From Sinohyriopsis cumingii (lineage: Eukaryota; Mollusca; Bivalvia; Unionida; Unionidae): a stretch of 64,000 nucleotides of DNA. Below are positions 16,616 through 34,737 of the stretch, piece after piece. Made by a program: the position numbers and the translations under genes. Below the pieces are notes generated by a model. That model did not search any database. It had not been told where the DNA came from and was given only the letters and a program-made list of their open reading frames with translations. Position 1 is the stretch's first letter, and the number at the start of each line of letters is the position of its first letter. The stretch spans positions 28,708,311 to 28,772,310 of the forward strand of contig CM068835.1 in NCBI GenBank assembly GCA_028554795.2. Reading direction: 5' to 3'.

Positions 16616-17024
16616 AGTAGTATGGTGGGACGGTCTAGGGACTAGGGGAGTTCCATGTTAAAAAGGTAATATCCACTCTGGGGACTACGTAAATTTAACA
16701 TGGGAAGCAATATCCACTCTGGGGACTATATAAATTTAACATGGGAAAAAAAGGCATCCACTCTGGGGACAAGGGAATTTAACATGGGAGAAAGGAATTA
16801 TCCATTCTAGGGACAAAGGCATTTGAACAATGGGAGAAAAAAATATCCATTCTAGGGACAAAGGCAATTGAACAATGGGAGAAAAAAAATATCCATTCTA
16901 GGGACAAAGGCAATTGAACATGGGATTTTTTAAAAATTAAAAAAATAAAAAATAAAAAAGGGGTAGGCAATGGAAAGTCATACTCTTTTCGAGAAATGTG
17001 GGTGGCCCTGAAAAGGGCCTTTGG
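16616..17024 (+). repeat. Left terminal inverted repeat, 409 bp
   Basis: Matches the reverse complement of 34,419-34,737. It consists of a 50-bp tip, a tandem block of six roughly 40-bp sub-repeats (ATCCACTCTGGGGAC, later ATCCATTCTAGGGAC), an A/T-rich stretch, and an inner end holding a histone-type 3' signal. The right repeat has only four sub-repeats, which explains the length difference. Confidence 0.95.
16983..17019 (-). terminator. Histone-type mRNA 3'-end signal, left repeat
   Basis: On the minus strand the stem-loop GGCCCT-TTTC-AGGGCC (17,019-17,004) is preceded by CCAAA and followed by ACCCAC. AAAAGAG (16,989-16,983) lies 14 nt beyond the stem. This matches the metazoan replication-dependent histone layout: SLBP stem-loop, cleavage after ACCCA, and a U7-pairing downstream element. 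It starts 28 nt past the stop codon of the gene at 17,048-17,425 and in its orientation. Use by the host machinery is inferred. Confidence 0.75.
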
Positions 17025-17047
17025 GTTTCTTCTGCTTCCAATTTCTT

Positions 17048-17425
17048 CTATTTCTCCACCAACTTCTTATTTTCTCTCCTACACTCTTTCTCTTCTTTTC
17101 TTCTTTTCTTCCTTTTTTTCTCTTCTTTCTTCTTCTCCTCCTCTTCTTTCTTCCTCTTCTCATTTTCTTCTTCTTTTTCAATTTTTTCATTCCATGCTCT
17201 TATCCTTATCCTTTCCTCTTCATCCTCCTTCTCCTCCTTTATTTCTTTCATCACAGCACTTATCATTTCCTTTGCTTTTCTTAAATTGTTAATCTCCATC
17301 TTCACTCGATGGGGGCTATAAGAATAGTGATCATCGTTTAACCTCATTAACATTTGCTCCATCATACCCAAATTGTCCAGGACGTCTTGCAATGCTTTCA
17401 TTTTATTAAGCTGGTTCGAAGCCAT
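17048..17425 (-). CDS. Short charged coiled-coil protein with histone-type 3' end
   Basis: 125 aa from the ATG at 17,425. A longer frame to 17,554 exists, but this start gives a compact protein. The first 60 residues are mixed helical sequence (MASNQLNKMKALQDVLDNLG...). The remainder is almost all Glu, Lys and Arg and ends in a strongly basic block, as in a long charged helix. No known domain is recognised and it is not a histone. It is the leftmost gene, transcribed outward into the inverted repeat, and its stop is followed after 28 nt by a complete histone-type 3' signal. No canonical TATA box was found; direct repeats lie upstream. Function unknown; a chromatin- or DNA-associated role is only a guess. 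Confidence 0.6.
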   Translation of the reverse strand: MASNQLNKMKALQDVLDNLGMMEQMLMRLNDDHYSYSPHRVKMEINNLRKAKEMISAVMKEIKEEKEDEEERIRIRAWNEKIEKEEENEKRKKEEEEKKKEEKKRKKRRKEEKECRRENKKLVEK

Positions 17426-17489
17426 CTTCTTTTTATTCTTTGTAGAATGGTTTGAACGACGAATACTGTGGGTTCTTATTGTGAAAGCG

Positions 17490-17715
17490 CGGACGTGATG
17501 GAAAACATCCCCCCAAGACATAAAATTGATATTACCTAAATCATAACCAAACAACGAGCGGACGTGAAGGAAAACATCCCTACTTTTTTCTCATTTCATA
17601 TGATCTACTATCCACATACGTGAAGCATCAATAAACAAACCCCTAATCTACTATTTACACACGCAAAGCATTAAAATTAAACCCAAATCTACTATCCCTC
17701 CACGGTTTTCGAGCC
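17490..17715. promoter_or_regulatory. Direct repeats upstream of the left end gene
   Basis: GCGGACGTGATGGAAAACATCCC occurs with small changes at about 17,491 and 17,555. ATCTACTATCC/TTACACACG-like units recur at about 17,600, 17,646 and 17,690. They lie in the gap between the left end gene and the protease gene and could be transcription-factor sites or a replication-related repeat. Confidence 0.35.
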
Positions 17716-17826
17716 GGAACGTTCAATGAGTGCCATGAGAGGGATAGTAAGAAGTCAAAGAGCATGAATCAACATTCTTATAGCCAAACAAAAGACAAAG
17801 ACATTTTTTTTCAAAACACAACATTT

Positions 17827-17832
17827 TTTATT
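17827..17832 (-). terminator. Polyadenylation signal for the capsid-protease transcript
   Basis: AATAAA on the minus strand, about 110 nt past the protease stop, followed by A/T-rich sequence. It contrasts with the histone-type ends used by the end genes. Confidence 0.6.
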
Positions 17833-17938
17833 CAAAATCACTTAACACTAACAAACAACTCTAACATTTTTAATAATAATTCAACAATATAACATCAAAC
17901 ATTTTTTTCAAATCTCAAACATTTTTTCAATTCACACT

Positions 17939-18499
17939 CTACTTTAAACAGGGCTGACAACGTTGTGAATGAAATTGTGATTTCCACTGTTGGAAGTCAT
18001 TAGGCCATTGATGGACACTACGTTTCCTAGCTTGAGACAAAAGATAAGCATAATGGTCACAAAACCATTGATCTACTTTCACATCATTTCTAGAAGAAGA
18101 ACGAGGATCAAAATGAGTCACTAAATGTTCTAAGGAATAGCCCAGGCTGCGATGATGCAGAAAATACACACAGTACTGTCCACACACCAAGGAATCTGTG
18201 CCTTGTAATTTCACATTATTGAATCGGGTGGTCTGAGCATTTCTTCTCATAAAGTCAATGATATCGTCTTCCAAAGGGGGCAATCCGTACGAATCGAAAT
18301 ATTCCACACATCCTTCTTGAGGAAAGTAGACGGCTACCCAGTGGGTTCCTGGGAGATGACTGTCGTCCGTGTTGATCACGTAAGCTAGATGGTCTTTAGG
18401 TTTGCGATGAGGGAGTTCATCTTTAGCACAGACGACAGGATTCCAAGAAGACGTATACGAACTGTGGTTCAAAAGGTAATAAAGTTCCCAGGTATCCAT
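17939..18499 (-). CDS. Adenain-like cysteine protease (virion maturation)
   Basis: 186 aa from the ATG at 18,499. A longer frame begins at a GTG (18,526) and is not preferred. The adenovirus-protease/Ulp1 fold residues are visible: His53 in GTHWVAVYF, Asp69 in YFDSYG, Gln99 in KLQGTD and nucleophile Cys106 in CGQYC, with Gln seven residues before Cys as in adenain. In Polintons and adenoviruses this enzyme cleaves capsid precursors inside the assembling particle. It is the last gene of the capsid transcript, 24 nt after the preceding stop. All catalytic positions are present and the frame is intact. Confidence 0.93.
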   Translation of the reverse strand: MDTWELYYLLNHSSYTSSWNPVVCAKDELPHRKPKDHLAYVINTDDSHLPGTHWVAVYFPQEGCVEYFDSYGLPPLEDDIIDFMRRNAQTTRFNNVKLQGTDSLVCGQYCVYFLHHRSLGYSLEHLVTHFDPRSSSRNDVKVDQWFCDHYAYLLSQARKRSVHQWPNDFQQWKSQFHSQRCQPCLK

Positions 18500-18522
18500 T
18501 GATTTGTGTGTTGTTTTCTTCT

Positions 18523-19023
18523 TCACAGATAATAATAAGTCGTCAATTCGATCCTGACTTTTTGCTTGAAAATGTCTGACAAATAACCGTTTCTTCGTTT
18601 CGTCTCCTCACTCTGATTCAGGAGAGCTTCGATACGATGGATCTCTTGAGTGGTTAATGGTGGACAAAAATGTTCACGCAAGTCTTTATCCCACTGATGC
18701 CACACGACTTCGTCCGAGATGAGACTCCAAGCTTCGTCCAGATACTCGTCCAATTTTTCTTCTTGACTCAACATCAGGCATTTATCGTGTTGAATTTGAC
18801 TGGGATGATCGTTTTGACATCCATAGCAATCTTTTTTGATCAATTCCGTCATTTTTTCGACCAAGTGTTTGGCAAAACAGGAGACTAAATGGACTTCTTG
18901 TTCTGGCCATCTTGACTTCATCATGACAACTTCGTCTTTGTCTTGAGATTCTTCTTCCCCGGTCTCCTCACATTCCATCTTCAAAGTTTCTCCACTAGGC
19001 AAAGAGGGATAACAGTCTTCCAT
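18523..19023 (-). CDS. Conserved Polinton protein of unknown function, between capsid and protease
   Basis: 166 aa from the ATG at 19,023, five bases after the major capsid stop. The N-terminal 35 residues are acidic. A Cys/His cluster, CYGCQNDHPSQIQHDKC (about residues 67-83), resembles a motif I associate with unassigned Polinton proteins and could bind a metal. The C-terminal half is helical with several tryptophans. No enzymatic motif is recognised. Its fixed place among virion genes suggests a structural or assembly role, which is inference. Confidence 0.75.
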   Translation of the reverse strand: MEDCYPSLPSGETLKMECEETGEEESQDKDEVVMMKSRWPEQEVHLVSCFAKHLVEKMTELIKKDCYGCQNDHPSQIQHDKCLMLSQEEKLDEYLDEAWSLISDEVVWHQWDKDLREHFCPPLTTQEIHRIEALLNQSEETKRRNGYLSDIFKQKVRIELTTYYYL

Positions 19024-19028
19024 GGCTT

Positions 19029-20315
19029 CTAATAGTCTAGAATGACTTCTCTCAAACTGTTGATTTCTATGGTATTGTCGAATTCTGCATACAGGAGGAC
19101 GTTCACTGTGTGATCTGGAGGTGGATTTGCAAACTGAAGTTCCACACGAATCTGACCCGATTTTATAGGGTGGAAATGTCCCTCGTCGCTGCCTCTTGCA
19201 TAATCGTCGTACGAAATACCGTGACTGGTATTGGTTCCTAACTGTCCCGTGGCTTCGTACAGGGACAAGTACGATCTCAAATAATTCTTTGCGACACCAA
19301 AGTTGGGCTCAAAGGGTCGGGTACACAAGGTCTTGCCGTCGCGACTGACTTCGATCTTCGACACATTGTAATGTTGAAACTCAAAAGGATTTTGATCGTA
19401 GGTTCCGTTGAAGGCTGAATTCCTGACGATACCAACAATCAAACGTTTGGGTAACTGTCCTTGGAACAGATGATCTTCGATCATAGATCGCTGTCCAGCG
19501 GGAATGGTGAACGTTTTCACTTCTACGCGTCGTATCGGATACTTGGCGGTCGTTCTGCTCAACGTCTGACTGACGTCGTTTCCCACTTTAGGTAACACTT
19601 CCACACGACGCACGTAAAGTCGGGCTTCTTGAATGATAGTTTTGTATTTATTGGCATGGGCCATCAAATGGAAAGCGGCACTGCTACGATTCAGTCTCAG
19701 ACGGATATCCACCCCGTTCAGCAAATACTTTTCTTGTAACAACATGTCCAAATGCAAACGATCCATCAGTTCTAAACTTCGCCCTTGCAGAATTTTCTTG
19801 CGACGGTCGTTAAACCCCACATTGTGAGGATTGTCATCTTCTGTCAGGACTGTGTCGCTAAACGTGCCTACACCTGCCGTGTCAGGTTTCCATACCACGC
19901 AAGCATCCAGATGAGTATTCTTGGCTTCTTTTCCGTACGTCAAGAGATTTTCCAAGTAGGCACGATATGGGTAAGTATCCATGCTGCTACTGACCAGTTT
20001 GTTATTCAAGTACAAGTCCACTTCGCTGAACAAGGAATGCATGAAATTGTTGACAGGAGCTACTCTAGCATCGCCTCCTGGATTGGTGTTGTCCGTTTTG
20101 ATCACTTTCACTTTCAAATACAGGTAACTGCTATTCAGATCGATGTAATCTTCGGGTTGTCCTTTGATTTCAAACTCGATGGGAGCTGATTCCGTCAAAG
20201 AGGAGACGGGATGAAATTCTACCCACTGAGATTCTTGCATCGTCATCATGGTAGTTGGCATGGCAAAGAGATCTAGTTCCGACTTGGAACAGGCACGAGA
20301 CTCTCGGTGCATCAT
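19029..20315 (-). CDS. Major capsid protein (hexon-like, double jelly-roll)
   Basis: 428 aa from the ATG at 20,315 (a second ATG follows directly). The N-terminal part has a strand-rich block, FEIKGQPEDYIDLNSSYLYL, typical of the Polinton capsid protein that invertebrate genome annotations often call F54H12.2-like. The body is rich in short beta-strand stretches, with no membrane segment and few cysteines. Polinton capsid proteins are predicted to fold as double jelly-rolls and form the icosahedral shell. A TATA-like CTATAAAT lies about 90 nt upstream, and the next genes follow with gaps of 5 and 23 nt. The frame is intact. The assignment as major rather than minor capsid rests on family memory and gene order. 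Confidence 0.82.
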   Translation of the reverse strand: MMHRESRACSKSELDLFAMPTTMMTMQESQWVEFHPVSSLTESAPIEFEIKGQPEDYIDLNSSYLYLKVKVIKTDNTNPGGDARVAPVNNFMHSLFSEVDLYLNNKLVSSSMDTYPYRAYLENLLTYGKEAKNTHLDACVVWKPDTAGVGTFSDTVLTEDDNPHNVGFNDRRKKILQGRSLELMDRLHLDMLLQEKYLLNGVDIRLRLNRSSAAFHLMAHANKYKTIIQEARLYVRRVEVLPKVGNDVSQTLSRTTAKYPIRRVEVKTFTIPAGQRSMIEDHLFQGQLPKRLIVGIVRNSAFNGTYDQNPFEFQHYNVSKIEVSRDGKTLCTRPFEPNFGVAKNYLRSYLSLYEATGQLGTNTSHGISYDDYARGSDEGHFHPIKSGQIRVELQFANPPPDHTVNVLLYAEFDNTIEINSLREVILDY

Positions 20316-20402
20316 TTTGTTCTGTGTCTCAATAATCGAAAACGTCTAAGTCTCGAACGGTTCCTTGTCCTTGCTGAATACCTGACTCGGTAGCGTGCAG
20401 GG

Positions 20403-20411
20403 CATTTATAG
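20403..20411 (-). promoter_or_regulatory. TATA box for the major capsid transcript
   Basis: CTATAAATG on the minus strand, 90 nt before the capsid ATG. It overlaps the stop region of the upstream small gene. Confidence 0.55.
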
Positions 20412-20678
20412 GTTTTCTCGGCGGCCCAAAAGGTCTTTGCCCGTTTGCAGCAAGACATTTTTGCCTGCCCTCATGAAGGCTTCTTTAGGGTTTTGTTTGT
20501 CGATGATGACATTTTGGAGAAATTCTTTGCCTTGCGTCAGTGCCGCATCTTTCAAGGCGTGCAATCCGCGTGTCACCATCGGTTTCAACACCGGGGCCTC
20601 CGAACGAAAAGCCGATTTTAACATATCTCCTAAGCCGTGTCCTCGCTGTCGAGCATCCCCTCGGTACACTGGATACAT
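20406..20678 (-). CDS. Small glycine/basic virion-associated protein
   Basis: 90 aa from the ATG at 20,678, three bases after the penton-like stop. It begins MYPVYRGDARQRGHGLGDML, a tyrosine/glycine-rich head of the QRGHGLG type that recurs in Polintons and adintoviruses between minor and major capsid genes, then an amphipathic helical region and a basic C-terminus. The layout resembles small adenovirus core or cement proteins (pX or VI), but I cannot show homology. The position between capsid genes supports a virion role. Confidence 0.7.
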   Translation of the reverse strand: MYPVYRGDARQRGHGLGDMLKSAFRSEAPVLKPMVTRGLHALKDAALTQGKEFLQNVIIDKQNPKEAFMRAGKNVLLQTGKDLLGRRENL

Positions 20679-20681
20679 GAC

Positions 20682-21614
20682 TTACGAGTCGTGAGAGAAC
20701 CGTTTTCGAAAATGGAGTTTCACCGTGACTTTTCCTTTGGTGAATGGAATATTTTGTCCCAGATCTCCTTTTATAGCAATGTTGACCGTGTCCAAATACG
20801 ACTTGCTGACAGGCAAATAGTGAAGATGTACAAATTCGCGGTGGACGTGATAAGTGTTTCCACCTTCCTCGTCAGCGTTCGTGGCAGAATCCACTTTGAA
20901 AGGAATGACACGCAGTAACGGTACGGAGGTGTGTCCCACCACGTTGGACTCCACCACATCGGAGTACACAAACATCAAATTCAGTCCTTGGTTCAGTTCT
21001 ACCGGGGTACGAAATAACTTGCTAAAAGACTCGTTGTCGTAAACGATTGGTGATTCGTTTTTCTTGAGCATGGCCATTCTCATGTCCATGTCTCCGCCCA
21101 ACATATCAAACAATTCAGGACAAAATAAAATGGACAGGATTTTACTCCCGTCAAATTTCATCAAGAAGCGACGAGCTGCCTTGTGGTATTCCATGGTGAC
21201 ACTTTTTTTGACACTCTCCAAAGCTTTCAGAAACACGACATTAAATCTGGAGGCTATAGTGCTGACCAAATGTTGACCACTAAAATAATAGCCTGGAGGA
21301 ATGAACAAGTGATAGGTGGTGTACTTTTGATTTTTTGTGCCAGGGGTTTTCTTGTCATATTTGCCATAGGTATCCAAGTACTGTTGCAATGGTTCGTCAT
21401 GAACTTCTACATCAAAATTATTTTGATTGGGAAGGACATTGAGGACTTGGGTTGGGTGAATGATTTCCACTAAAGCCACTTCCCAATGGGCTTCGTGATC
21501 TAATGGGATGGTCTGAGGTAATTTGGCCGTGTAACAGCACAACGTGTTGTGGGGAAACACCTCCATAGAACTGTCACTGGGTAAGGTTAAGTAAAATTGG
21601 TTTTGGTGACTCAT
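20682..21614 (-). CDS. Penton-like minor capsid protein
   Basis: 310 aa from the ATG at 21,614, whose ATG overlaps the TGA of the upstream membrane-protein gene (ATGA). The N-terminus, QFYLTLPSDSSMEVFPHNTL followed by a TAKLPQTI..WEVALVEI block, is the conserved start of the single-jelly-roll minor capsid protein of Polintons. The rest is beta-rich with no membrane helix. In this family it is predicted to form the five-fold vertices. The frame is intact. It sits in a tight group with the membrane protein and the small basic protein, suggesting one transcript. Confidence 0.82.
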   Translation of the reverse strand: MSHQNQFYLTLPSDSSMEVFPHNTLCCYTAKLPQTIPLDHEAHWEVALVEIIHPTQVLNVLPNQNNFDVEVHDEPLQQYLDTYGKYDKKTPGTKNQKYTTYHLFIPPGYYFSGQHLVSTIASRFNVVFLKALESVKKSVTMEYHKAARRFLMKFDGSKILSILFCPELFDMLGGDMDMRMAMLKKNESPIVYDNESFSKLFRTPVELNQGLNLMFVYSDVVESNVVGHTSVPLLRVIPFKVDSATNADEEGGNTYHVHREFVHLHYLPVSKSYLDTVNIAIKGDLGQNIPFTKGKVTVKLHFRKRFSHDS

Positions 21615-22021
21615 AATTCCAGAGTTCTGTGGCTGTCCGAGGGGTTAGTGGACGTCAGAGGCGTGTCTCCGCCTAAAATGGGGTTGTTGTTGTTGGAGTG
21701 GTGACTGGCACTGGCACTGGACACAAGGTTCCCGTGGTTTCCGTTCGAGGAGAATTTCAGAGAGGGATTGGGAAGCAGGTAACCGATGCAACTGCTCAAT
21801 AAAATGGTCCACAATTGTTTGTCTCCTTGTTGCAAACTCAAATTGGCGATGGCTGCCCCGATGACACAATACACCACGAGGATTTGGCAGAAAAAGACGA
21901 TTTGCGTTTTAGGCACACGTTCTCCACACCACACCCACAAAGGTTGCTTTTGTAAATCTTGCACAGAAGAACTGGGTGAAGGAGTGGTAGCCGTAGTAGC
22001 TGCGTCTGTGTGAAAGGGCAT
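21611..22021 (-). CDS. Conserved two-helix membrane protein
   Basis: 136 aa from the ATG at 22,021 (the frame also opens at an upstream GTG, not used). After a Ser/Thr/Pro-rich head, VPKTQIVFFCQILVVYCVIG begins a first membrane helix, and LWTILLSSCIGYLLPNPSL forms a second hydrophobic segment ending in a conserved-looking LLPxPxL. I recognise this arrangement from Polintons, where its function is unknown; a virion membrane or host-membrane role is possible. A TATA box lies 15-24 nt upstream of the ATG, inside the end of the integrase reading frame. The stop overlaps the next start by four bases. Confidence 0.8.
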   Translation of the reverse strand: MPFHTDAATTATTPSPSSSVQDLQKQPLWVWCGERVPKTQIVFFCQILVVYCVIGAAIANLSLQQGDKQLWTILLSSCIGYLLPNPSLKFSSNGNHGNLVSSASASHHSNNNNPILGGDTPLTSTNPSDSHRTLEL

Positions 22022-22026
22022 GATGG

Positions 22027-23134
22027 TCACTTCTTTTTATAGTCGATGACTTGCGAAGCGTCGATCCAAGAATCAAAACTGGGTGGATATCATTTCCAAC
22101 GTACTTTAACTTCTTTGACACTTCGTTTACCCACTTTACGGGTTCTGCGTTCGAGAACGCTTTCTATGTCGTACACGTCGTCTTCTTTTTTGGTGACACG
22201 TTGTAACTCGGGCAAATAAAACGTTCCTTTGAGCACTTCTCCGTTCATGTCTTCCAATTTATAGACGGCAGGATGACGGCAATGCACTCGTCCAGTGACA
22301 CGAAACAATTCGGTCGTCCAATTAGGTAAGTAACCTTTGTCGAAAGTGCGTTTGGTTTTGCAATGCGCACCCAATCTCCTACGGCCATCTGTCCACTTTT
22401 CTTGGGGACAGCCCTCGTCGGGGACGTACCAAACAGGCGCTCAAACACGAGCACTTCGTTGTCGGGAGTCACTTCTTGCAGGGCACGTCCGATGCTTCGA
22501 TGGTAAGATTGGTTGTACGCTTGCACCAGGTGCGGTAAGATGTCGATGTACTTCAGAGTGTGGTGATGCGTAAAATATTTCCACATGCGTTCTTTCAAAG
22601 TGCGTTGAAAACGTTCCACGATGCTGGCTTTGGTTTCGGGATTCTCGGTGGTAAAAAAATGAATGTCACGTTTCTTTAATTCTTTTTGAAAAGCTTGGTT
22701 CAGAAATTCAGTGCATTTGTCCGTTTGCCATCGAAGAAGGTGACGATCGCTTTGTTTCAACACTCGTTGCAGGGCTCGCACTAACTCGCTGATGGATTTG
22801 GAAGTCAAGGGCACGACCCAGGCAAATTTGGAAAAGACGTCGATGACACAAAACAAATATTTGTAGCCACGATTGTAGCTGGCCAAATGAGAGACATCGA
22901 CTAAATCGGCTTGCCATTGATGATCGATGCCTTCCACTCGGGTGCAACTTCTGGCAAACTTGCGTCGAATGGGTTTATGTAAAGTGTAGGTAGCTTGTTC
23001 TTGTAACCATCGTTCACTTGAGGTAAACGGAGACTTTTCAGTCGAGTTTTGGCAGCACGATACAATTTTTGAACTCCTGCGTAACCTGCAGGATGGGAGG
23101 GATCGTAGTAAATGCTGGCTAAGACTTTTTCCAT
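22027..23134 (-). pseudogene. Broken retroviral-type integrase with chromodomain
   Basis: Starts at the ATG at 23,134, 18 nt after the preceding stop. The rve catalytic core is visible: Asp in WQADLVD, Asp in TDKCTEF (a Cys where Gly is usual) and Glu in ASIVERF, the DDE triad that joins element ends to target DNA. A C-terminal SH3-like part and a chromodomain (..YDIESVLERR..KVRWK) follow. Three breaks are seen: a one-base frameshift near 23,013-23,017, a one-base frameshift in a short T run at 22,354-22,359, and an in-frame TGA (22,090-22,092) inside the chromodomain. It is therefore inactive unless some breaks are assembly errors. Confidence 0.92.
22036..22044 (-). promoter_or_regulatory. 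TATA box for membrane protein and penton genes
   Basis: ACTATAAAAAG on the minus strand, very close to the ATG at 22,021, so the 5' leader must be very short or initiation may use a later ATG. It doubles as coding sequence for the last residues of the integrase chromodomain. Confidence 0.5.
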
Positions 23135-23151
23135 TTTTTTGTGTTTGTGTG

Positions 23152-23772
23152 TTAATAAGACACCCACTCTTGGAGGATGCTACTCTTTTTCTCTTGGGGT
23201 ACTTTCTTGGATTGCAATGCTTTGCGTGTGCGACCGGCAATATGTGTCGAAGAGGAGGATGTCTGAGAGGGGGATATCGGTTCTTGTTTCACTTCTGTCT
23301 TCACTTTCTTTTTCTCTTGTGATGATGAAGGGGTGGCCATCATCTTTTTAATCCATCCAATTCTGGAAGTAGGTGGTGTTGTTAACTTGCGTACTTTTTC
23401 TGGTGGAGTTTGAAACCCTTCTTCTTCTTCTTCTCCTTTTTCTGTCTTGGTCACTGGTAGTGGTGGTACTGGTACTGGTGATGGTGCTGAACTTTTCATC
23501 AAGGTCTTAAAATCTTTCAGAGTGGGTAGAGCTGTTTCGACTAAAGCTTTCTGGTGAAAGAGTTGCAGTCGTTGCAAGAGTTGACAGTACTTTTGCGATT
23601 TTTCTGTTTCGGACAAATCTTGGCGATCCATCAAGGATTGCAATTCGTGTTGTAACTGGGACATCTCGCTCAAATTGGGATTGGGAGGTAAATGCGGGGT
23701 GCGTTGTTCTTGCCACCGATGGTATTCCATCCATCGTTTGTAAGGCACTAAAGCCAGTTTTCGTCCTTCCAT
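23152..23772 (-). CDS. Conserved Polinton protein of unknown function
   Basis: 206 aa from the ATG at 23,772. The N-terminal 110 residues are helical, with heptad-like leucines (LQHELQSLMDRQDLSETEKS), a pattern I associate with an unassigned Polinton protein located next to integrase. A Pro/Ser/Thr linker and a highly basic C-terminal tail follow. No catalytic motif is seen. A weak TATA-like GATAAAAAG (23,817-23,825) lies about 45 nt upstream and overlaps the previous stop codon. A DNA-binding or core-protein role is possible but unproven. Confidence 0.7.
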   Translation of the reverse strand: MEGRKLALVPYKRWMEYHRWQEQRTPHLPPNPNLSEMSQLQHELQSLMDRQDLSETEKSQKYCQLLQRLQLFHQKALVETALPTLKDFKTLMKSSAPSPVPVPPLPVTKTEKGEEEEEGFQTPPEKVRKLTTPPTSRIGWIKKMMATPSSSQEKKKVKTEVKQEPISPSQTSSSSTHIAGRTRKALQSKKVPQEKKSSILQEWVSY

Positions 23773-25258: not shown

Positions 25259-26008
25259 TCAGAGGTTTTTATAGATTTTTTGTGGAGTGAAATTAAGTCG
25301 AAGACGGAGACGTGTACAGGACAGGCCCCAGTGGTGAAACAAGTGGGTACGAAATCGCAAATCCTCGGGGGTCGTAGGTTTCAAATCGACGAGTAAATAG
25401 GCGTGTGGAGTTTGAGTGGCATCGTCGTACGCCTGAGTCAGCCAAGGCGTTCCTAACTGTTTGGCTAAGACTTGCACTTGCGATTTATCTCGAGGGCTTT
25501 TAAACAAGACCACGTAATGCGCATTGAGACTGATGGTGCGATGGGCTTTACTTTGTTGAAACAAATTTTGGGTGATGTAAACGACACTGGCATTACGGTG
25601 ATGCCCTTTGCGCGTGAACCACAGTTTAATTTCTTCTTCGTCTTCTCCTAACATGTCGTCAAAAATGACCAAATGGGTTTGACGGGAGTCAGAGACGATG
25701 CCGTCGTCTTCTTTAGGAATGCCTTCCACAAACACGATGGAATCGCCTTGACTTTCTCGCAAGAGGCTGTACGCCGATTGCCACTCTTTGTAACACCACA
25801 CGATCCGCTGAGGTGGCCGATCGATCAAATGATGTTTATGTTCGATCAAACGTTTGACGAATTCGGTTTTGCCTGAACCGCTAGGTTCAGCAATGAGCAT
25901 GTTAAAGGGATGGCGAAGATACAAAGCCTCCCAACTGGCACGATCTAAGTGTTCTTCGATGACTTTGACAGTAGAGGTAGAGGGAACAGAGACAGCAGAG
26001 GTAGCCAT
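25259..26008 (-). CDS. FtsK/A32-like genome-packaging ATPase
   Basis: 249 aa from the ATG at 26,008. An upstream in-frame ATG at 26,116 lies before the TATA box and is rejected. Walker A is AEPSGSGKT (residues 40-48), Walker B is THLVIFDD (111-118), and a sensor-like ITQN lies at 145-148. This combination marks the Polinton branch of the HerA/FtsK packaging ATPases that drive DNA into capsids. The frame is intact and the length is normal. AGTATATAAAC (26,050-26,060) is a good TATA box about 45 nt upstream, giving its own promoter. Confidence 0.95.
   Translation of the reverse strand: MATSAVSVPSTSTVKVIEEHLDRASWEALYLRHPFNMLIAEPSGSGKTEFVKRLIEHKHHLIDRPPQRIVWCYKEWQSAYSLLRESQGDSIVFVEGIPKEDDGIVSDSRQTHLVIFDDMLGEDEEEIKLWFTRKGHHRNASVVYITQNLFQQSKAHRTISLNAHYVVLFKSPRDKSQVQVLAKQLGTPWLTQAYDDATQTPHAYLLVDLKPTTPEDLRFRTHLFHHWGLSCTRLRLRLNFTPQKIYKNL
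25266..25274 (-). promoter_or_regulatory. TATA box for the 317-aa core-like gene
   Basis: TCTATAAAAAC on the minus strand, 38-46 nt before the ATG at 25,228. It lies at the stop end of the ATPase gene. Confidence 0.6.
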
Positions 26009-26049
26009 AGTGTCAGGAATGTCACTTGTGACACGAAAACAAACAAGAC

Positions 26050-26060
26050 GAGAGTTTATA
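26050..26060 (-). promoter_or_regulatory. TATA box for the packaging ATPase
   Basis: AGTATATAAAC on the minus strand, 42-52 nt before the chosen ATG. It decides the start codon. Confidence 0.7.
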
Positions 26061-26080
26061 TACTTTGTTTTCAGAACACG

Positions 26081-26086
26081 TTTATT
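26081..26086 (-). terminator. Polyadenylation signal downstream of the Bcl-2-like gene
   Basis: AATAAA on the minus strand, eight bases past the last codon of the upstream (right-hand) gene and just before the ATPase promoter. Confidence 0.55.
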
Positions 26087-26093
26087 GAATGTT

Positions 26094-26828
26094 TTAAACA
26101 TGAATACGAAAGACAAAAATACATAAAAGCCAAAGGCTTAAGTACAAGGATAAAAGGCACATGATAACCATTAACGTGGAATAAAAACAAGTGTCTGTAC
26201 AACATGTTTTGGGTAATGTTCTGACCAGTTCTATAGGGGGTAAGGTCACACAAGTGTCCTCCCGAAAGGGTCTTTCAGGCCTGTCCACGACAGTCCTGTC
26301 CTGGGTGACGGGTTCTTCTGGCACCGTCACTAACACTGGTTGAAAAGTAACTTTTTTCCTTGAACAACTCTCGTGCATACTGAGCCACTTCTTGGGTCCA
26401 AGCCTCAAAATCGAATTCTTTCCAGGCACGGACATCTGTCCAGTGGGGGTGTAAGTCACAAGCTACACACACATCGTCATACAGGTCTCGGGTAGCTAAA
26501 AGTTGACGAATCTTTTTTTTCCCGTAGAGGTCGAGCAGTATCCAGATGAAAACGTAAGGCTTTGAGCAAAAGGAGTCTCTCGTGAACATTTAAAGGCACC
26601 ACTTTCATGTTGAATGGGTGGTAAATACTGTTCGTAAAGAGTCCACAAGTAATCGGCTGGTAAACGAAATCCCAGAAAACAAGTCACTAAGACACACACC
26701 ACTAGTCGACCCAAATTGAATGGATACAGTTCTTGTAATAGTCGATGGTAATGATCCACGGTTTGAATATGGTCATTGAGTTGCTTCCACGGAATCTGTT
26801 GGATTACATACGATAAAAGTCGTGGCAT
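26094..26828 (-). pseudogene. Possible Bcl-2-like tail-anchored protein, frameshifted
   Basis: Three overlapping minus-strand frames (26,828-26,496; 26,589-26,275; 26,459-26,094) read as one protein with two frame changes: one near 26,540-26,575 and one near the T6 run at 26,352-26,357. The first part has LYPFNLGRLVVCVLVTCFLG, which resembles a BH1-type helix. The middle has DLYGKKK and a Trp-rich segment. The last has a 23-residue hydrophobic tail followed by Arg/His, like the tail anchor of Bcl-2 family proteins. Neighbouring BIR genes support an anti-apoptotic theme. The Bcl-2 assignment is weak; an unrelated membrane protein is possible. Confidence 0.4.
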
Positions 26829-27949: not shown

Positions 27950-28005
27950 CTTGTTCGCTCGGTTTTGGTAGTCCCAATGAACTATCGATCTTGACCATAG
28001 CCCCT

Positions 28006-28014
28006 TTTTATACT
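28006..28014 (-). promoter_or_regulatory. TATA box for the damaged BIR gene
   Basis: AGTATAAAAAGG on the minus strand, about 57-65 nt before the ATG at 27,949. It overlaps the stop of the other BIR gene. Confidence 0.6.
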
Positions 28015-28466
28015 AGTCGCAATGCAGTCTCAAGCTTGTACATCGTTCCTTTTTTATGTTTTTTATGTCTTGTTTTGGAAGGTACCGTCTCTAAGGTACC
28101 GTCTTCACTGTACTGTAATGTCATGGGTGGAAAGGCCATAGAAAGGTAAGGGCAGTGCGGAGACCATCGAGTATGTTCCAGAATAGCTGAATCTTTATAG
28201 ATACATAGATCCATTCGTAACTTCAGGCCACAAGCGAAACACTGTACTTCATATCCCAATCCTGACTCAGGTCCCAAGTAGACAAATCCTGTTCTAGCTA
28301 AAATATGCGAAGAAGGTAATCCTTTCCTATCCGTAGGCCATGCTTGAAACGTGTCCAATCGACGGGCACAATCACAATAGTCAGGTAAGAAGACTGGAAA
28401 ATGGTAGGGTTTGAACTTGGAGTTCTCATCGGGTTTCTCACTCGATTCTTGCTGTGGCGAAGTCAT
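28008..28466 (-). CDS. BIR-domain (IAP-like) protein, intact
   Basis: 152 aa from the ATG at 28,466. A single BIR covers about residues 22-115: RRLDTFQAWP, ILARTGFVYLG, then the zinc ligands in VQCFACGL and LEHTRWSPHC, so the C-x2-C...H...C set is complete. The C-terminal tail is basic (KTRHKKHKKG); there is no RING finger. BIR proteins of animals and baculoviruses restrain caspases or relay survival signals; for a virus-like element this would prolong host-cell life. It lies 24 bp after the polymerase stop. Sequence divergence from the damaged neighbour suggests an old duplication or separate gains. Confidence 0.85.
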   Translation of the reverse strand: MTSPQQESSEKPDENSKFKPYHFPVFLPDYCDCARRLDTFQAWPTDRKGLPSSHILARTGFVYLGPESGLGYEVQCFACGLKLRMDLCIYKDSAILEHTRWSPHCPYLSMAFPPMTLQYSEDGTLETVPSKTRHKKHKKGTMYKLETALRLV

Positions 28467-28489
28467 CCTTCTAGTAGGTGGCTATCCGC

Positions 28490-31400
28490 TTACAACCAAA
28501 GTTTAATACCAACATGTCCATACGGCAAAGTGAAATGATTGGGCAGTCGCACTCGCTTCTGGTACACGATTTGATAGACTTTTTCCAAGGGTCGACTGAC
28601 GATGTGGTGAGTGGGTAAACGTACAATCTTGTTCGGTTGATAGCTGGTCACTTTAAAGTGTTCATCCTCTCCCGATTGCAAGGCTTCTTTCAATACCCCG
28701 AAGTTGACCACACGACTGGTACGATAATTCAGAGTCAATCCTTTCACTTTGCACGTCGTGTGCACTTCTCCTTGTTTGTCCCGGTATTCGTAGCCGTAAT
28801 TTTTGGGACCGCCACTGACGAAACTTAGAATCTTGTCGTCGGGATGCTCGTCTGTCCAGGCTCCTAAACGGTCTCCTTCGATGTCAGGGTGCTGTTCACT
28901 CGGGTGATGGATATAAATGCAACTGTCCGTGTCAAAGTACAGGACGCGTTCCCCTAACAGTTCTAAAGCTTCGTACAATTTTAAGCGAGCATGAGCTGTC
29001 ACGTAAGCCGCAATGATGACATTTCCAAAAGGGTCGTCTTGTACAAAGTCCAGATCTTCTTCGTAATTGACCAAGATCAAATTCTCTCGAACGACGTCCA
29101 CGTGTTTCATGTATTTGGTTTTGTCGTGAATCATCTGGAAGTAGCGGGAAGGTTCTGTCAAATATTCCGTCTTGGGTAAACACGGTCGTTGTGCCATTTT
29201 ACCCCACAAGCAATTTAACATCACTTTGGCAAACGATCGCCTGCCTTCGTTTTTCTCGATGTGGTCTAAAGAGATGCCTTCTTGTTCATAGTATTTCTCT
29301 TTGAATTGTATTTGGTCTTCGGGAGTGTGACACCAGGACGGATAGCCGCTGGCTTCTTGCTTCAGTTTCAAAAAGGCATCCACGTAGTCGGCGAAAATGC
29401 CTTTCTGCGTGGGGTCACCCTTGGGGTATTGTTGTGTCTTGGGAAAGTGGCAAATTTCGTACACTTCTAATAGTTGGTATCCCATGTCCAGAGCTTTGAA
29501 CAATTCTACGCTGACCCAGGTTCCCGTCAAAGCCCGTTCTTCCTGGGTGTGCTGACAAGGTTGGTCTTGGTTGTACGTTTCGGCACAAGTACGGCACAAA
29601 GGAAACATCAGTTTGCCTCGGCAATGGTGAGGTAAGACGGGATGGTATAGGTTCGTGGGAGGCAAAACTTTACACTTGATCAAGCCTTCGTATTGTCGAA
29701 TGTTTTTCAGGTCGATGTGTTCCGTGAACAATTGTGGGTGCCCTACAGGAAAGCGACAATATTTGCACACGTAGGGATACAGCGAACACACATCCAAGTA
29801 TTTGATTTCTTCTCCTTTCTCTTCGTCGGCTTGGTACAGCAAACAGGTGTTATTGGTCCGTCCTCCGCACAAACTATCCCTTGGGTTCAGGGGGTCCATC
29901 AGCTTGTAACTTTCCACGACACGTTTAAAGTCAGGATCGGTTTTCATACGGTGATCGTACTCGTGTTCCCACATTTCCACCACTTGGTATCCTTCCTGTT
30001 CTAACTTTAGGCGTCGCTGACAAGTGTCCTGGTACAGGTCTTCCATGGTTCGTTGTAAAAACTGATTTTTAGTGCCACGGTCAGGGTAACAGACGGGACA
30101 TCCGTGAAATAAGCAACCGTTAAACTCGTACACGATCTTGGGGTTTTCTAAGTCCCAGCCATCGACCGAATACGTTCCGATGGTCTTTTCGCCTCCTCCG
30201 TTGCGGGCATGTTGAATCCATTTGTCTTCTTTATCGCACAAGTAATGTAACCAACGTAGGGCTTTGACCGAGTATTGACGTTTGACATAGTGGGTCGTTT
30301 GAGGACAGATGACAGCCACGGTGTTTTCAGGCATGAATCGTTGTCGATACACTAAGGAACACGCTTTGGCAATGGTGCAAGCTACTTTCAAAGGATCGAC
30401 CCCTCCGTGTTCCATGAACAGTTCTCGAAATTTTCCAGAGCAACGCCGTAAAATGTCCACGTCGGAACGACAATACTTTAACATTTCGTCCTGAAAGTCG
30501 AAGGGGTCGGATACATGAGCCTGGTACCAAGCGTAGAAAGTTTCTCGTTGTTCGGTATGCATGTTGTCGGGGTCGTAATAGTGAGCCTCAGGTAAATGGG
30601 GTAGAACGGCGTGTTGATTGGCTTCCGTATTGAAAAAGTGTGGAAAGTACCCTTTAGCCATTTCTGTCATTGCAAACGTTTTAGGCATTCGACTCAAAGG
30701 CATGGCCAAGTAACTCATCGAATCTTTAAACTCCACTTGCATGAAAATGATTTTGGCTCCGTTCAAAGTGACTTTAGGACGTTCGGTGCCATGTTCCGTA
30801 TAGTATCTGAGAAGAAACTGTCCATCGTATCCGGAGAGATTGTGAGCCATCACCGTGGCATGACGATGACAATCTCCGTAACGTTCGATGTCCTCTTGGC
30901 TCCACGTCTTGTCGATGGGGTCTAAGACCCATTGGGCAAAATCGGCTAACGTGTTCGGTCCTCGAAAGATTTTTTCTGAATCTGAATCTTGCTGCAGTGA
31001 GGGCAATGACTGAAGATAGGTTCTTGAATGCACTTCTCGCACGCTCGATGAGCCACGCAGAAATTAGGAATGTGAATGCCGGTCTCTTGCATGCATTCGA
31101 AATAAAAAAAGATGAAATTGCCTTTCTTCTTGTGACCGTCCTCTTTCTCTGGTGGGGATTGGTATTTTTGCACGTAGCATTCGTGTTCCAAGTCCACGAT
31201 GTGGTGACAAATGTGACATTTTTTCTTTCCTGAACATACGTGTGTCTTGGCATTATTGGTACGTAGGCCGTGTCCACACGTAGGGCACAATCTCAGCAGT
31301 TGACAAGCACATTTCTGCTGTTAACCTTGCGTCTTCAGATGTTGTTGGTAACAGGCAGGGCTGACAAACGTGCGCAGACAAGCAGGACAATGTACTCTGT

Positions 31401-32523
31401 CTTGTCCTTCGCTCAGACAGGGTGGAGAAGCCAAACATCCTGAGCGTTTCAATCCGCAATGTTTGTGTTGCTCTCGATTATTATAGCCATAGTCACATTT
31501 CTCACAGTAATATTTGTATCCCAGGAATCCAGTGATAGTGGTAATGGTATCGAAATGGTCATCGTGATGATAAAGGTGAATGTATTTTCCATCCTTAAAG
31601 TCTTGGCCTCGAAACAACAGAGGCCCGCGCACTTCTTGAGGGTGCACTTTCAAGGTGTAGAATGGAGCTAGGACATCTTGCAATGTTTGCATTTTAGGAA
31701 TACCGCAGGGTGTGTCTTTGGACAGGCCAGCTTGTTGTAACAGGAGTTCTGCTTCACTTCGTTGTTTGGCTCGGTTCGATTTTCGAGTGTTCTCCCAGGC
31801 TCTTTTCCATTCTACCGTGTCGTTCTTGTTGGGATAGGTTTGTCCCACTACGATAGCCCTGGCTAAACACATCTGGTCTTGAGGGTTGTGAATTCGGACG
31901 AGGCTCGTTTTGGTGATGCGAAGGTCGTTCACCAATAACACCTTATTGCGTTGTCCGGTCCCTTGAGGAGGAGAGACGTGGGTCATGTCCAGTGTGGCTT
32001 TTCCATCGGTGATGTCAAACTGGTCATTAGATTGTTGCACGTGTTGAATCTTGTCCATGACTTTGGAAGCAGTCAATTCTGCGGGTCTGCTAAACTCGAT
32101 CCAAACAGGGGATTTCAAACCGTCGTGTTGTATGGAAAGTCTCAAGCGATCGTCTTCTTTGGGTTGACATTGTCGCTTGAGTGCAGTGAGCAAAGAATCC
32201 CACACCCCAGTAATAAACCATTCTGCTTTCTCTAACGGTATTTCAGCCTTGAAATCTGTAAACTTCACTGAGTATTTGTAAGCCGTAGTTCTAAATTTTC
32301 TAGAGGAGCGCTTTTCCGTCTCTCGAATGGAATAGTACTTTTCAGGGTTGACTAAGGGTGGTGAACTTTGTTTAGAGGGTTCGGATTCTGGTTCACTCAT
32401 GTCCTCTTCAAAATCACTGGCATGAATTTGTGCCACGACTTCAGCCCTGGTACGAGGCGATAGATCACGTTTCTGCCTCTTACTTTCTTCTTCTTTCTTC
32501 TCGAATGAATAGGATCGTTTCAT
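28490..32523 (-). pseudogene. Protein-primed family B DNA polymerase, broken
   Basis: Starts at the ATG at 32,523. An N-terminal part with Cys/His clusters runs to an in-frame TAA (31,321-31,323). The same frame then continues into the exonuclease start, where the first catalytic Asp of the DxE motif is Tyr (FFYFEC). A one-base frame change follows at the T6 run 30,970-30,975, and an 850-codon frame ends at 28,490. That frame carries exonuclease II (HNLSGYD), exonuclease III (YCRSDVD), polymerase motif A (DVCSLYP), motif B (KVMLNCLWGKMA), motif C (YFDTDSC) and SGGPKNYG. Polintons use this enzyme to copy themselves. The polymerase active site is preserved, but stop, frameshift and exonuclease loss make a working product unlikely. 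Confidence 0.93.
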
Positions 32524-32570
32524 CTTGAGTGAAAAACGTCAAATGACTCAAGTTTAAACACCATGGGCTA

Positions 32571-32579
32571 ATTTATAGT
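32571..32579 (-). promoter_or_regulatory. TATA-like box for DNA polymerase
   Basis: GACTATAAATT on the minus strand, about 50 nt before the polymerase ATG. It forms half of a compact divergent promoter with the zinc-knuckle gene. Confidence 0.55.
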
Positions 32580-32591
32580 CATGTCAGACCA

Positions 32592-32603
32592 GCGTATATA
32601 AAA
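32592..32603 (+). promoter_or_regulatory. TATA box for the zinc-knuckle gene
   Basis: CGTATATAAAAGG, a strong consensus TATA box 56-67 nt before the ATG at 32,659 and only about 15 bp from the oppositely oriented polymerase TATA box. Confidence 0.75.
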
Positions 32604-32658
32604 GGGTGTGTGTCTTTGTCCTTTCACTATTCATTTCACTCTCTAGCCGAGCACAACG

Positions 32659-33105
32659 ATGGAAGAGACTAGCCAAATCGAACGTTTCATCAGAGCTTTG
32701 CGAGGGGTCATTAGAAAATTCTCTTCAGACGAGCCGACGGACTACTCTTCTTCCTTTCGAGATAAAAGTCAAGATACTTGCTATATCTGTCAGAAGAAAG
32801 GGCATTGGTCTTCAGAGTGTCCAGATCGTCAAAAAAGAAAAACAGGGGCTAGAAAAGACAAAAGTCAAGATACCTGTTATTATTGTAAAGAAAAAGGACA
32901 TTGGTCTCCAGATTACCCAAAAAAGAAACAAGAGGAGTCAGAAGAAAAGCGGGATTCTTCAGAAGAAGAGAGGGATTCTTCAGAGGAAGAAAGCAGCCAG
33001 GTGAAGAAAAAGAAACAGGAGAAGAAAAGAAGAAGGGAAGAAAGTGAGGAGGAAGAAGAGGAAAAGACTGTGACGGTGAAGAAATTTAAAAAACAGAGAG
33101 ACTAA
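32659..33105 (+). CDS. Zinc-knuckle (CCHC) protein with charged tail
   Basis: 148 aa from the ATG at 32,659. Two tandem CCHC knuckles occur at about residues 40-55 (CYICQKKGHWSSEC, complete) and 75-90 (CYYCKEKGHWSPDY, last Cys replaced by Tyr), both preceded by DKSQD, an internal duplication. The C-terminal 60 residues are Glu/Lys/Ser runs with RDSSEEE repeats. CCHC knuckles bind single-stranded nucleic acid in retroviral nucleocapsid and CNBP-like proteins. It is divergent from the polymerase and the only plus-strand gene in the element's interior, so a replication or RNA-binding role is plausible. No AATAAA is seen downstream; GGTAAGT at 33,205 is donor-like. Confidence 0.75.
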   Translation: MEETSQIERFIRALRGVIRKFSSDEPTDYSSSFRDKSQDTCYICQKKGHWSSECPDRQKRKTGARKDKSQDTCYYCKEKGHWSPDYPKKKQEESEEKRDSSEEERDSSEEESSQVKKKKQEKKRRREESEEEEEEKTVTVKKFKKQRD

Positions 33106-33328
33106 ACAATGAGACAGAAGAAGTGTATGAACTTTTTAAAGTGCTCTGTTGTGAATTGTGAATTGGATTGTAACTATGGATAAAAGAATACATTAATTAT
33201 ATAAGGTAAGTGTCTCTGAGTTTTGATTTGAAATAAGAAGCTACACTCACGCACTCATATACACGTACTATAGGGGTAAAATGTTTTTTTTTGTTGATTT
33301 TTGAGTTATTGGCAAATTGAAAGGCTAT
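33106..33328. other. Convergent intergenic segment
   Basis: A/T-rich 3' region of the zinc-knuckle gene facing the 3' end of the 33,387-33,950 gene. It holds no recognised frame. Its right end carries the internal histone-type signal. Confidence 0.5.
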
Positions 33329-33365
33329 CTCTTTTCGAGAGACGTGGGTGGCCCTGAAAAGGGCC
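33329..33365 (-). terminator. Histone-type mRNA 3'-end signal, internal copy
   Basis: Minus-strand stem-loop GGCCCT-TTTC-AGGGCC (33,365-33,350), ACCCAC next, and AAAAGAG at 33,335-33,329. It begins 21 nt past the stop at 33,387. Compared with the right-repeat copy the stem-loop, ACCCAC and downstream element are identical, and the only two differences in this stretch fall in the spacer. Confidence 0.78.
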
Positions 33366-33386
33366 TTTTTTGGTGTAGGGGTGAGT

Positions 33387-33950
33387 TTAAGCAATCAACT
33401 TTAACTGCCTTAAGCCTTTGCCACGGCCAAGGCCTACTTCTGGACTGCGTACTGTTGATGATGATTGGGTTGAAATCACTAAGGGTGGTACGGTAGGCTT
33501 AGTCACAGGGTTGACGTGTTTAGCTCGGGAAGGTCGTATTCTCTTCGGTCGTAATAAAGAAGTCTGATACATTTGTTTCGGACTTCTTAACTCCGCTAAA
33601 ATGTCCAACAGTACCGTGACCGTTTGATTTTCACCCTCTTGTTTCTTTGCTGCTACTTCTTCTTGTTGTTGTTTTTTTCTTACCTCTTCTTCTTGCTGCT
33701 GTTGCTGTAGGAGAAAAGCTTGTTCCGCTTCCTTTTGTCGTTGTATAAATTTCTCCAATTCTTCTTTCTGTCTCTGTCTAAAATTCTCCAATTGCGGTAA
33801 TGAAGGTGACGAAGGTTCCGGAACAAATTCTTGCGAGGTAAGAAAATCCACAAAATCCCAATTTACCTCTTCTGAAAGTAAGTCCGGGATCCCTTGGGCG
33901 GTCTTCACTGCTGGTGCACCCCAATGAATCGTTTTCTGAGTTTCCGTCAT
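33387..33950 (-). CDS. Gln/Glu-rich coiled-coil protein with histone-type 3' end
   Basis: 187 aa from the ATG at 33,950. Residues 1-45 contain aromatic/acidic motifs (NWDFVDFL). Residues 50-105 form a Gln/Glu/Lys coiled coil (FRQRQKEELEKFIQRQKEAE, then QQQQQEEE). A short hydrophobic segment (TVTVLLDILAEL) and a basic Pro/Ser tail with LRPKRIRPSRAKHV follow. No known domain; not a histone. The promoter has a TATA box, an E-box fused to a CRE, and two CCAAT boxes, and the stop is followed by a histone-type 3' signal. A regulatory role linked to S phase is inferred from these signals only. Confidence 0.72.
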   Translation of the reverse strand: MTETQKTIHWGAPAVKTAQGIPDLLSEEVNWDFVDFLTSQEFVPEPSSPSLPQLENFRQRQKEELEKFIQRQKEAEQAFLLQQQQQEEEVRKKQQQEEVAAKKQEGENQTVTVLLDILAELRSPKQMYQTSLLRPKRIRPSRAKHVNPVTKPTVPPLVISTQSSSTVRSPEVGLGRGKGLRQLKLIA

Positions 33951-33997
33951 GTTGAATCACAGTCGCATAGATTGACTGCACACAGGCGCTAGCGAAT

Positions 33998-34005
33998 CTA
34001 TATAG
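33998..34005 (-). promoter_or_regulatory. TATA box of the left-facing gene of the divergent pair
   Basis: CTATATAG, palindromic, 48-55 nt before the ATG at 33,950 and 6-7 bp from the CRE. Confidence 0.7.
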
Positions 34006-34007
34006 AC

Positions 34008-34019
34008 CACGTGACGTCA
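34008..34019. promoter_or_regulatory. E-box overlapping a CRE
   Basis: CACGTG (34,008-34,013) shares two bases with TGACGTCA (34,012-34,019), giving CACGTGACGTCA. These are textbook binding sites for bHLH-zip (USF/Myc type) and CREB/ATF factors. It sits just upstream of the TATA box of the 33,387-33,950 gene. Confidence 0.65.
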
Positions 34020-34036
34020 CAGACTGTTCTCTTCGG

Positions 34037-34081
34037 ATTGGATGCGGACTGACTGAATTTTGTATCGCGTGTTTGGATTGG
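34037..34081 (-). promoter_or_regulatory. Two CCAAT boxes in the divergent promoter
   Basis: CCAAT on the minus strand at 34,041-34,037 and 34,081-34,077, both ATCCAAT or ACCAAT contexts, between the two TATA boxes. Paired CCAAT boxes are characteristic of cell-cycle and histone promoters. Confidence 0.55.
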
Positions 34082-34117
34082 TCAATGAACTCAATCCGTT
34101 TCAATCCTTCCTCTACC

Positions 34118-34125
34118 TATAAATA
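34118..34125 (+). promoter_or_regulatory. TATA box of the right-facing gene of the divergent pair
   Basis: TATAAATA, 45-52 nt before the ATG at 34,170. Confidence 0.65.
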
Positions 34126-34169
34126 AGCGCAGTTCACTGCATTGATTCACCTGTTCTCGTCGCCTCAAG

Positions 34170-34400
34170 ATGTGGACCACAGTCGAATCATCCACCCTTG
34201 TGTCTTCAATGATGTTTAGGACGGACATGCTCATGTATGTCCGATCCAAGTGGACCGTTGTCCACAAGTCAGACACCAGTCTGTGGATACGAAGAGTGTA
34301 CGTGGAAAGACAAGGTTGCCTCAAGAGGACTCTGATTTATGGCCCTACACTAAGACGCAGCTTGAGGACAAGAAGATGCCGTAGATGCCCTTTATGTTAA
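34170..34400 (+). CDS. Small basic Cys/Arg-tailed protein with histone-type 3' end
   Basis: 76 aa from the ATG at 34,170. Mixed hydrophobic start (MWTTVESSTLVSSMMFRTDM), then increasingly basic, ending RSLRTRRCRRCPLC. No family is recognised. Support for a real gene is positional: a good TATA box 45-52 nt upstream, a CCAAT-bearing promoter shared with the opposite gene, and a complete histone-type 3' signal 23 nt after the stop. It is transcribed outward into the right inverted repeat, mirroring the left end gene. Confidence 0.55.
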   Translation: MWTTVESSTLVSSMMFRTDMLMYVRSKWTVVHKSDTSLWIRRVYVERQGCLKRTLIYGPTLRRSLRTRRCRRCPLC

Positions 34401-34418
34401 GGGCATATTAACATAAAT

Positions 34419-34737
34419 CCAAAGGCCCTTTTCAGGGCCACCCACATTTCTCGAAAAGAGATTGACTTTCCATTGCCTACCCCTTTTTTATTTTTTATTT
34501 TTTTAATTTTTAAAAAATCCCATGTTCAATTGCCTTTGTCCCTAGAATGGATATTTCCTTTCTCCCATGTTAAATTCCCTTGTCCCCAGAGTGGATGCCT
34601 TTTTCTTTCCATGTTAAATTTATATAGTCCCCAGAGTGGATATTGCTTCCCATGTTAAATTTACGTAGTCCCCAGAGTGGATATTACCTTTTTAACATGG
34701 AACTCCCCTCGTCCCTAGACCGTCCCACCATACTACT
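34419..34737 (-). repeat. Right terminal inverted repeat, 319 bp
   Basis: Reverse complement of the left repeat, with four sub-repeats instead of six. The tip ends CCATACTACT at 34,737, directly before the target duplication. The inner end carries the histone-type 3' signal. Confidence 0.95.
34424..34460 (+). terminator. Histone-type mRNA 3'-end signal, right repeat
   Basis: CCAAA, then the stem-loop GGCCCT-TTTC-AGGGCC (34,424-34,439), ACCCAC, and AAAAGAG at 34,454-34,460. Orientation and distance (23 nt after the stop at 34,400) fit the end gene at 34,170. The 5' CCAAA and 3' ACCCA flanks match the animal histone consensus. Confidence 0.78.

Follow-up and report, generated by a model that had tools for sequence, protein, structure and literature searches.

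Analysis of a 64,000-nucleotide stretch of the genome of the bivalve Sinohyriopsis cumingii (assembly GCA_028554795.2, contig CM068835.1, positions 28,708,311 to 28,772,310 of the forward strand; hereafter the window) points to an unexpected way of ending messages in a mobile, virus-like element. The window contains an 18.1-kb Polinton (16,616-34,737), and it is well supported by its sequence that this element carries complete histone-type mRNA 3' ends behind its terminal genes and that these ends are maintained. The most economical reading, which we regard as very probable, is that terminal Polinton genes use the replication-dependent histone 3'-end machinery of the host. A 2007 paper describes replication-dependent histone genes as the only animal genes known to produce hairpin-ended mRNAs without poly(A) (PMC1924863).

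All three copies of GGCCCT-TTTC-AGGGCC in the Polinton have an ACCCAC flank and are followed, 14 nt past the stem, by AAAAGAG, which resembles the histone downstream element (HDE), and all three exceed the curated cut-off of 34 bits of RF00032, the Rfam model of the histone 3' UTR stem-loop (Table 1). The E-values rule out a chance origin of these hairpins; no further RF00032 match was found in the rest of the window at E <=1, nor elsewhere in 16,500-34,800 at E <=10. The hairpins lie in the sense orientation, two on the minus and one on the plus strand, 28, 21 and 23 nt past the stop codons of genes coding for 157, 187 and 76 amino acids (aa), respectively. The original prediction had described these three copies, their flanks and their placement 21-28 nt past the stops of short genes, and both direct reading and RF00032 bear this description out. 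Its count of three holds for presence and not for independence, because the hairpins at 17,004 and 34,424, one at the inner end of either arm of the terminal inverted repeat (TIR), are one and the same sequence and count once; the copy at 33,350 is separate from the TIR, leaving two independent hairpins out of three.

The host genome contains tandem histone repeats with a unit of about 8.3 kb comprising H3, H4, H2B, H2A and H1, and three stretches of these repeats (L061-L063) were taken as the host sample, H1 being assigned by eye on the basis of its reading frame. RF00032 was applied to them as a positive control and gave 17 matches, at the ends of the H3, H4, H2B, H2A and H1 genes, and hairpins of the type bound by the stem-loop-binding protein (SLBP) are kept by host histone genes. 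The comparison with the species' own histone genes, proposed together with the original prediction, revealed the same class of hairpin: the six-pair stem, the four-base TTTC-type loop, the ACC flank and the purine HDE 14 nt past the stem are shared, a few tens of nt past a stop codon, and the stem-loop of host H2B is identical to that of the Polinton in all 16 nt. A GAAAAG core is common to both sets at near-identical spacing, AAAAG starting 14 nt past the stem in host histone genes and 15 nt past it in H2A and H1. A U7 RNA that recognises the host GAAAAG would meet identical letters in the Polinton. The differences are that the Polinton copies follow genes of a mobile element that do not code for histones, and that the outer pair is A-U in most copies at the left end. 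By eye, TTTGCCA-like letters lie 14 nt past GAAAAG in host H2A, and the Polinton module at 33,350 has them in this position too.

The modules recur throughout the genome. An RF00032 search scored the best 75 of 589,472 candidates, all 75 above the cut-off, and 48 of 48 matches examined from these 75 belong to the Polinton family of the window. The explanation that the hairpins simply mark histone-coding sequence was rejected, as none of the 28 longer hairpin loci encodes a histone. Since these 28 loci and a further 20 had been chosen by their hairpin, two more samples were chosen by protein and blind to it. For the 187-aa gene, 150 copies were scored (93-100% identity; 131 without internal stops by manual count; 29,486 unverified first-look candidates), and 20 were taken in steps of about 4 from the upper half of the list, one already-examined copy being replaced. 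The hairpin was present in 20/20, at 20-26 nt past the stop, with AAAAG at +14 in 20/20 and six pairs in 16/20. For the 76-aa gene, 150 copies were likewise scored (149 without internal stops; 18,046 unverified first-look candidates), and 20 taken in steps of about 7 gave the hairpin in 20/20, all six pairs in 18/20 and the exact AAAAG at +14 in 17/20; the distance from stop to stem was 23 nt in 19 of them, the remaining one being measured from a match one residue shorter. The hairpin was therefore found in 40 of 40 gene copies chosen by protein. The Polinton family is large and young. Some of its copies carry extra genes at the left end, which account for nine further modules across seven loci. 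By eye, the extra genes (in L001, L004-L006, L008, L025 and L026) code for coiled-coil, basic-tailed proteins, each followed by its own hairpin, and a promoter-like stretch resembling window 17,476-17,697 is repeated in several loci that have them.

Conservation was measured as the mean majority-base fraction per segment. In the 76-aa sample it peaks over the stem-loop (0.988) and the purine element (0.984), with 0.969 between stop and stem, 0.865 in the ACCCAC flank and a dip to 0.823 in the spacer, whose letters vary; beyond the HDE it is 0.929 at +38 to +55 and about 0.70 past +56. The spacer has no insertion columns between stem and HDE in this sample. The pattern in the 187-aa sample is weaker, with 0.985 for the stem-loop, 0.918 for the spacer and 0.979 for the HDE. 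The element started at +14 in 79/79 modules that had been selected, from the window, the 28 loci and the initial 20 blind copies, for AAAAG anywhere from +3 to +31. Of the nine left-end modules, seven have an A-T outer pair and a fully paired stem, the exceptions being L001, with a broken outer pair, and L004, with a broken inner one. These two were excluded from a pairing alignment of 12 hand-chosen modules, seven from Polintons and five from the host, in which 72/72 pair cells are standard and two pairs are changed on both sides; the A-U outer pair of the left-end modules is probably a single event inherited by paralogues. Together, the conservation of stem-loop and HDE looks functional, more weakly so in the 187-aa sample.

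The signal also appears outside the family. A search with an alignment of 25 polymerases yielded four contigs from GTDB assemblies that resemble Polintons and are presumably misbinned. One of them (L064, 8,883 bp), with about 37% identity in the polymerase and 32% in the capsid protein, carries GGCCCT-TATC-AGGGCC, ACCCC and AAAAAAGAG near one contig end, 28 nt past a C2H2 zinc finger-like gene of 89 aa, and its hairpin exceeds the RF00032 cut-off (35.8 bits, E 9.9e-7). TGACGTCA lies upstream of terminal hairpin genes in both elements, at window 34,012 and at 7,874, 7,889 and 7,952 of L064. It is also present outside the element, at window 36,858 and 57,314, and in L064 at 6,182. In IMG/VR, scans with two hairpin patterns returned four contigs in all, each with its match inside an open reading frame, and these were rejected; the scans show that the pattern arises only rarely in this database. 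IMG/VR scans with polymerase or polymerase plus capsid alignments found no close Polinton, and four weak polymerase relatives only.

Several observations weigh against the use of the histone machinery by terminal Polinton genes. Three of the four GTDB contigs, which are partial and 3.6-8.5 kb long, lack a hairpin at E <=0.1. The HDE core is substituted in 3/20 copies of the 76-aa sample and the HDE is lost in L002. In the 187-aa sample the stretch from stop to stem (0.982) is conserved to the same degree as the stem-loop, and +81 to +130 (0.942) is more conserved than the spacer, with 0.849 at +40 to +80. The 40 blind copies are not 40 independent events, because the main family consists of young, related copies. 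Both the window hairpins and the host histone genes are missing from the 75 listed genome matches, and this list therefore cannot show a signal confined to Polintons. A search with the Rfam model of U7 found no match among the 65 of 801,960 candidates scored, and control genomes were silent as well; a U7 pattern search gave 313 matches against 193 for the reversed control pattern, with about 100 listed. The 29 pattern sites examined had no convincing U7 form and were rejected, several resembling coding repeats. SLBP was sought with PF15247, without a match among the 14/14 candidates scored, in a search that does not cross introns and whose controls were silent. Because of the silent controls, and because a protein search cannot cross introns, the U7 and SLBP family searches are uninformative rather than negative. 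Finally, AATAAA or ATTAAA was looked for within 300 nt past the stops of 20 genes and found in two, neither of them hairpin-ended: the protease gene, with ATTAAA at 65 nt and AATAAA at 107 nt, and the gene at 26,094-26,435, with AATAAA at 8 nt. None of the three hairpin genes has such a signal, but neither have 15 of the 17 genes without a hairpin, including the one at 32,659-33,105, so that this absence is compatible with ends lacking poly(A) and is not proof of them. Among the findings that would have spoken against it, the original prediction had listed poly(A) ends behind AATAAA and a lack of such stem-loops next to genes in related elements. On the former, the lack of AATAAA and ATTAAA near the three hairpin genes agrees with the prediction but loses force with the 15 other genes, and the latter is answered by the full set in one of the four distant contigs. 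On a third such finding, a U7 RNA of this lineage that does not pair with AAAAGAG, the searches yielded no U7 RNA to compare, though host histone genes have the GAAAAG core at nearly the position it takes in the Polinton.

One alternative, to which we give only a slim chance, is that the modules are functionless remnants of a captured histone 3' UTR, kept only by young age or conversion. The 93-100% identity of the scored 187-aa copies would agree with this, as would the resemblance of the module flanks to host histone genes beyond the core. At 51 positions outside stem and HDE, where shuffled sequences give about 14-16 matches, the flanks match host H2B at 22-25 (p 0.001-0.019), H3 at 21-24 (p 0.0015-0.045) and H4, H2A and H1 at 15-23 (p 0.0015-0.78), all p values being uncorrected for 24 comparisons. 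In 20/20 further stretches chosen by their hairpin there is a local match to H2B that includes the hairpin (41-68 nt, 77-88%), and in three of them one to H3. A capture of the signal from a host histone 3' end is thus plausible. However, functionless remnants do not account well for two conservation peaks that flank a variable spacer in the 76-aa sample, for a compensatory pair change in the stem, for a module standing behind several classes of gene, or for the full signal appearing again in the distant contig L064.

It is very unlikely that the hairpins are DNA-level signals of the TIRs, for replication, integration or packaging, rather than RNA processing signals. Two of the three window hairpins do lie at inner TIR ends, and TIRs are the site of replication signals in protein-primed elements; however, the hairpin at 33,350 and those inside the left end are outside the TIR, all three hairpins of the window and all 40 of the blind samples stand in sense directly behind a stop, and the fixed HDE spacing, TTTC loop and ACC flank, which match host histone genes, would be superfluous in a hairpin acting as DNA. 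We give just as little credit to a stem-loop that serves SLBP-dependent stability or translation while poly(A) is also added downstream, as with some histone mRNAs in differentiated cells: PMC9756948 describes polyadenylated transcripts that retain stem-loop and HDE for some human histone genes, but the HDE is conserved jointly with the hairpin and no AATAAA or ATTAAA follows within 300 nt of the three stops.

If terminal Polinton genes do use the histone pathway, the stem-loop would be bound by SLBP, the U7 small nuclear ribonucleoprotein would pair with GAAAAGAGA and CPSF73 would cleave after ACCCA. The mature mRNA would then end in the stem-loop without poly(A) and would accumulate in S phase, when the replication machinery of the host is active; this timing would follow from SLBP, whose action in animals links histone-type mRNAs to S phase. 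Since the TIR holds the signal at its inner end, TIR copying would place a compact terminator behind whichever gene faces each end of the element. Copies of the module would also end the inner terminal gene and, in related elements, the extra left-end genes, and the replication and capsid genes, which form one long leftward block, would presumably rely on the usual poly(A) signals past the protease gene. On balance, we lean towards a broader proposal as well, in which at least two deeply separated Polinton lineages tie their terminal genes (early, regulatory or DNA-binding) to the S phase of the host through the histone pre-mRNA pathway. The lineage studied here would hold the terminator inside its TIR, so that each genome end is a terminator without poly(A), the signal would probably derive from a core-histone gene of the host, and the element would be the first non-histone, virus-like user of SLBP and U7.

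By title and the start of the abstract, no paper in our literature search described a virus or transposon gene with a histone-type hairpin end, and nothing was found on a Polinton, Maverick or other transposable element with a histone hairpin, within a scope that leaves out most subscription papers. In a term search of their main texts, two papers on Polintons and adintoviruses had no passage on histones, polyadenylation or stem-loops (PMC11071308), or treated histones solely as viral histone-like proteins, without a passage on stem-loops or polyadenylation (PMC11071296). If the proposed pathway is true, the rule that such hairpins belong to histones only is broken by a virus-like, mobile element present at least 150 times in a single genome, Polinton gene expression is linked to host DNA replication, viral mRNAs have a route to dispense with poly(A), and the modules offer natural variants for the study of SLBP and U7 specificity.

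The polymerase B, integrase, packaging ATPase and capsid protein that define Polinton/Maverick elements are all present in the element, together with TIRs and a 6-bp target-site duplication (TSD) at both edges, and its sequence identifies it as a Polinton. TIR lengths are about 320-410 bp, and the arm segment at 16,875-17,028 is 97% complementary to 34,415-34,568. Polymerase B, integrase fragments, an A32-like ATPase, an F54H12.2-like capsid, TIRs and the 6-bp TSD are shared with known Polinton/Maverick elements and adintoviruses; the histone-type 3' ends set the window Polinton apart. Adenovirus early regions may offer a further analogy, with small genes at the ends, a cAMP response element (CRE)-like site in front and a long capsid block, although adenovirus early mRNAs are polyadenylated.

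Table 1. Features of the Polinton and its surroundings, in window positions
Feature	Position	Strand	Evidence or remark
TSD TATATC, left	16610..16615	.	direct sequence reading
Left TIR, with a histone-type 3' end within its inner end	16616..17028	.	repeat comparison
AAAAGAG, HDE-like, 14 nt past stem	16983..16989	-	
Stem-loop GGCCCT-TTTC-AGGGCC behind 157-aa gene	17004..17019	-	RF00032 40.9 bits, E 1.3e-8 (match 16,979-17,024)
Terminal gene 1, 157 aa, K/E-rich, coiled-coil-like (by eye)	17048..17521	-	net charge +12; no Pfam family
Putative adenain-like protease, not hairpin-ended	17939..18499	-	by eye; no Pfam match
Major capsid protein	19029..20315	-	several named relatives labelled F54H12.2-like
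Integrase, approximate extent, frame broken in window copy	22093..23179	-	by eye from open frames
Packaging ATPase	25259..26101	-	Pox_A32 PF04665, 2.1e-6, residues 62-87 only
DNA polymerase B	28490..30850	-	PF03175, 1.9e-41
AAAAGAG, HDE-like, 14 nt past stem	33329..33335	-	
Stem-loop GGCCCT-TTTC-AGGGCC behind 187-aa gene, outside TIR	33350..33365	-	RF00032 37.1 bits, E 3.2e-7 (match 33,325-33,370)
Terminal gene 2, 187 aa, Q-rich	33387..33950	-	at least 150 genome copies
CRE-like TGACGTCA, in the gap between terminal genes 2 and 3 (divergent)	34012..34019	.	lead only
Terminal gene 3, 76 aa, basic	34170..34400	+	net charge +12; at least 150 genome copies
Right TIR	34415..34737	.	repeat comparison
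Stem-loop GGCCCT-TTTC-AGGGCC behind 76-aa gene	34424..34439	+	RF00032 41.8 bits, E 5.9e-9 (match 34,419-34,464)
AAAAGAG, HDE-like, 14 nt past stem	34454..34460	+	
TSD TATATC, right	34738..34743	.	direct sequence reading

The predicted fold of the 76-aa protein has a mean pLDDT (predicted local distance difference test) of 58 and gives no conclusion. Elsewhere in the Polinton, a pair of neighbouring genes at 27,359-28,466 carries inhibitor-of-apoptosis BIR domains, and the gene at 32,659-33,105 on the plus strand, convergent with the 187-aa gene and without a hairpin, codes for CCHC zinc knuckles. Outside the element, the window holds fragments of a reverse-transcriptase-type element (42,736-45,056, minus strand, by eye) and, at 58,138-60,096, a long reading frame of tandem repeats with a unit of the CINYDLLLVYAFG type.

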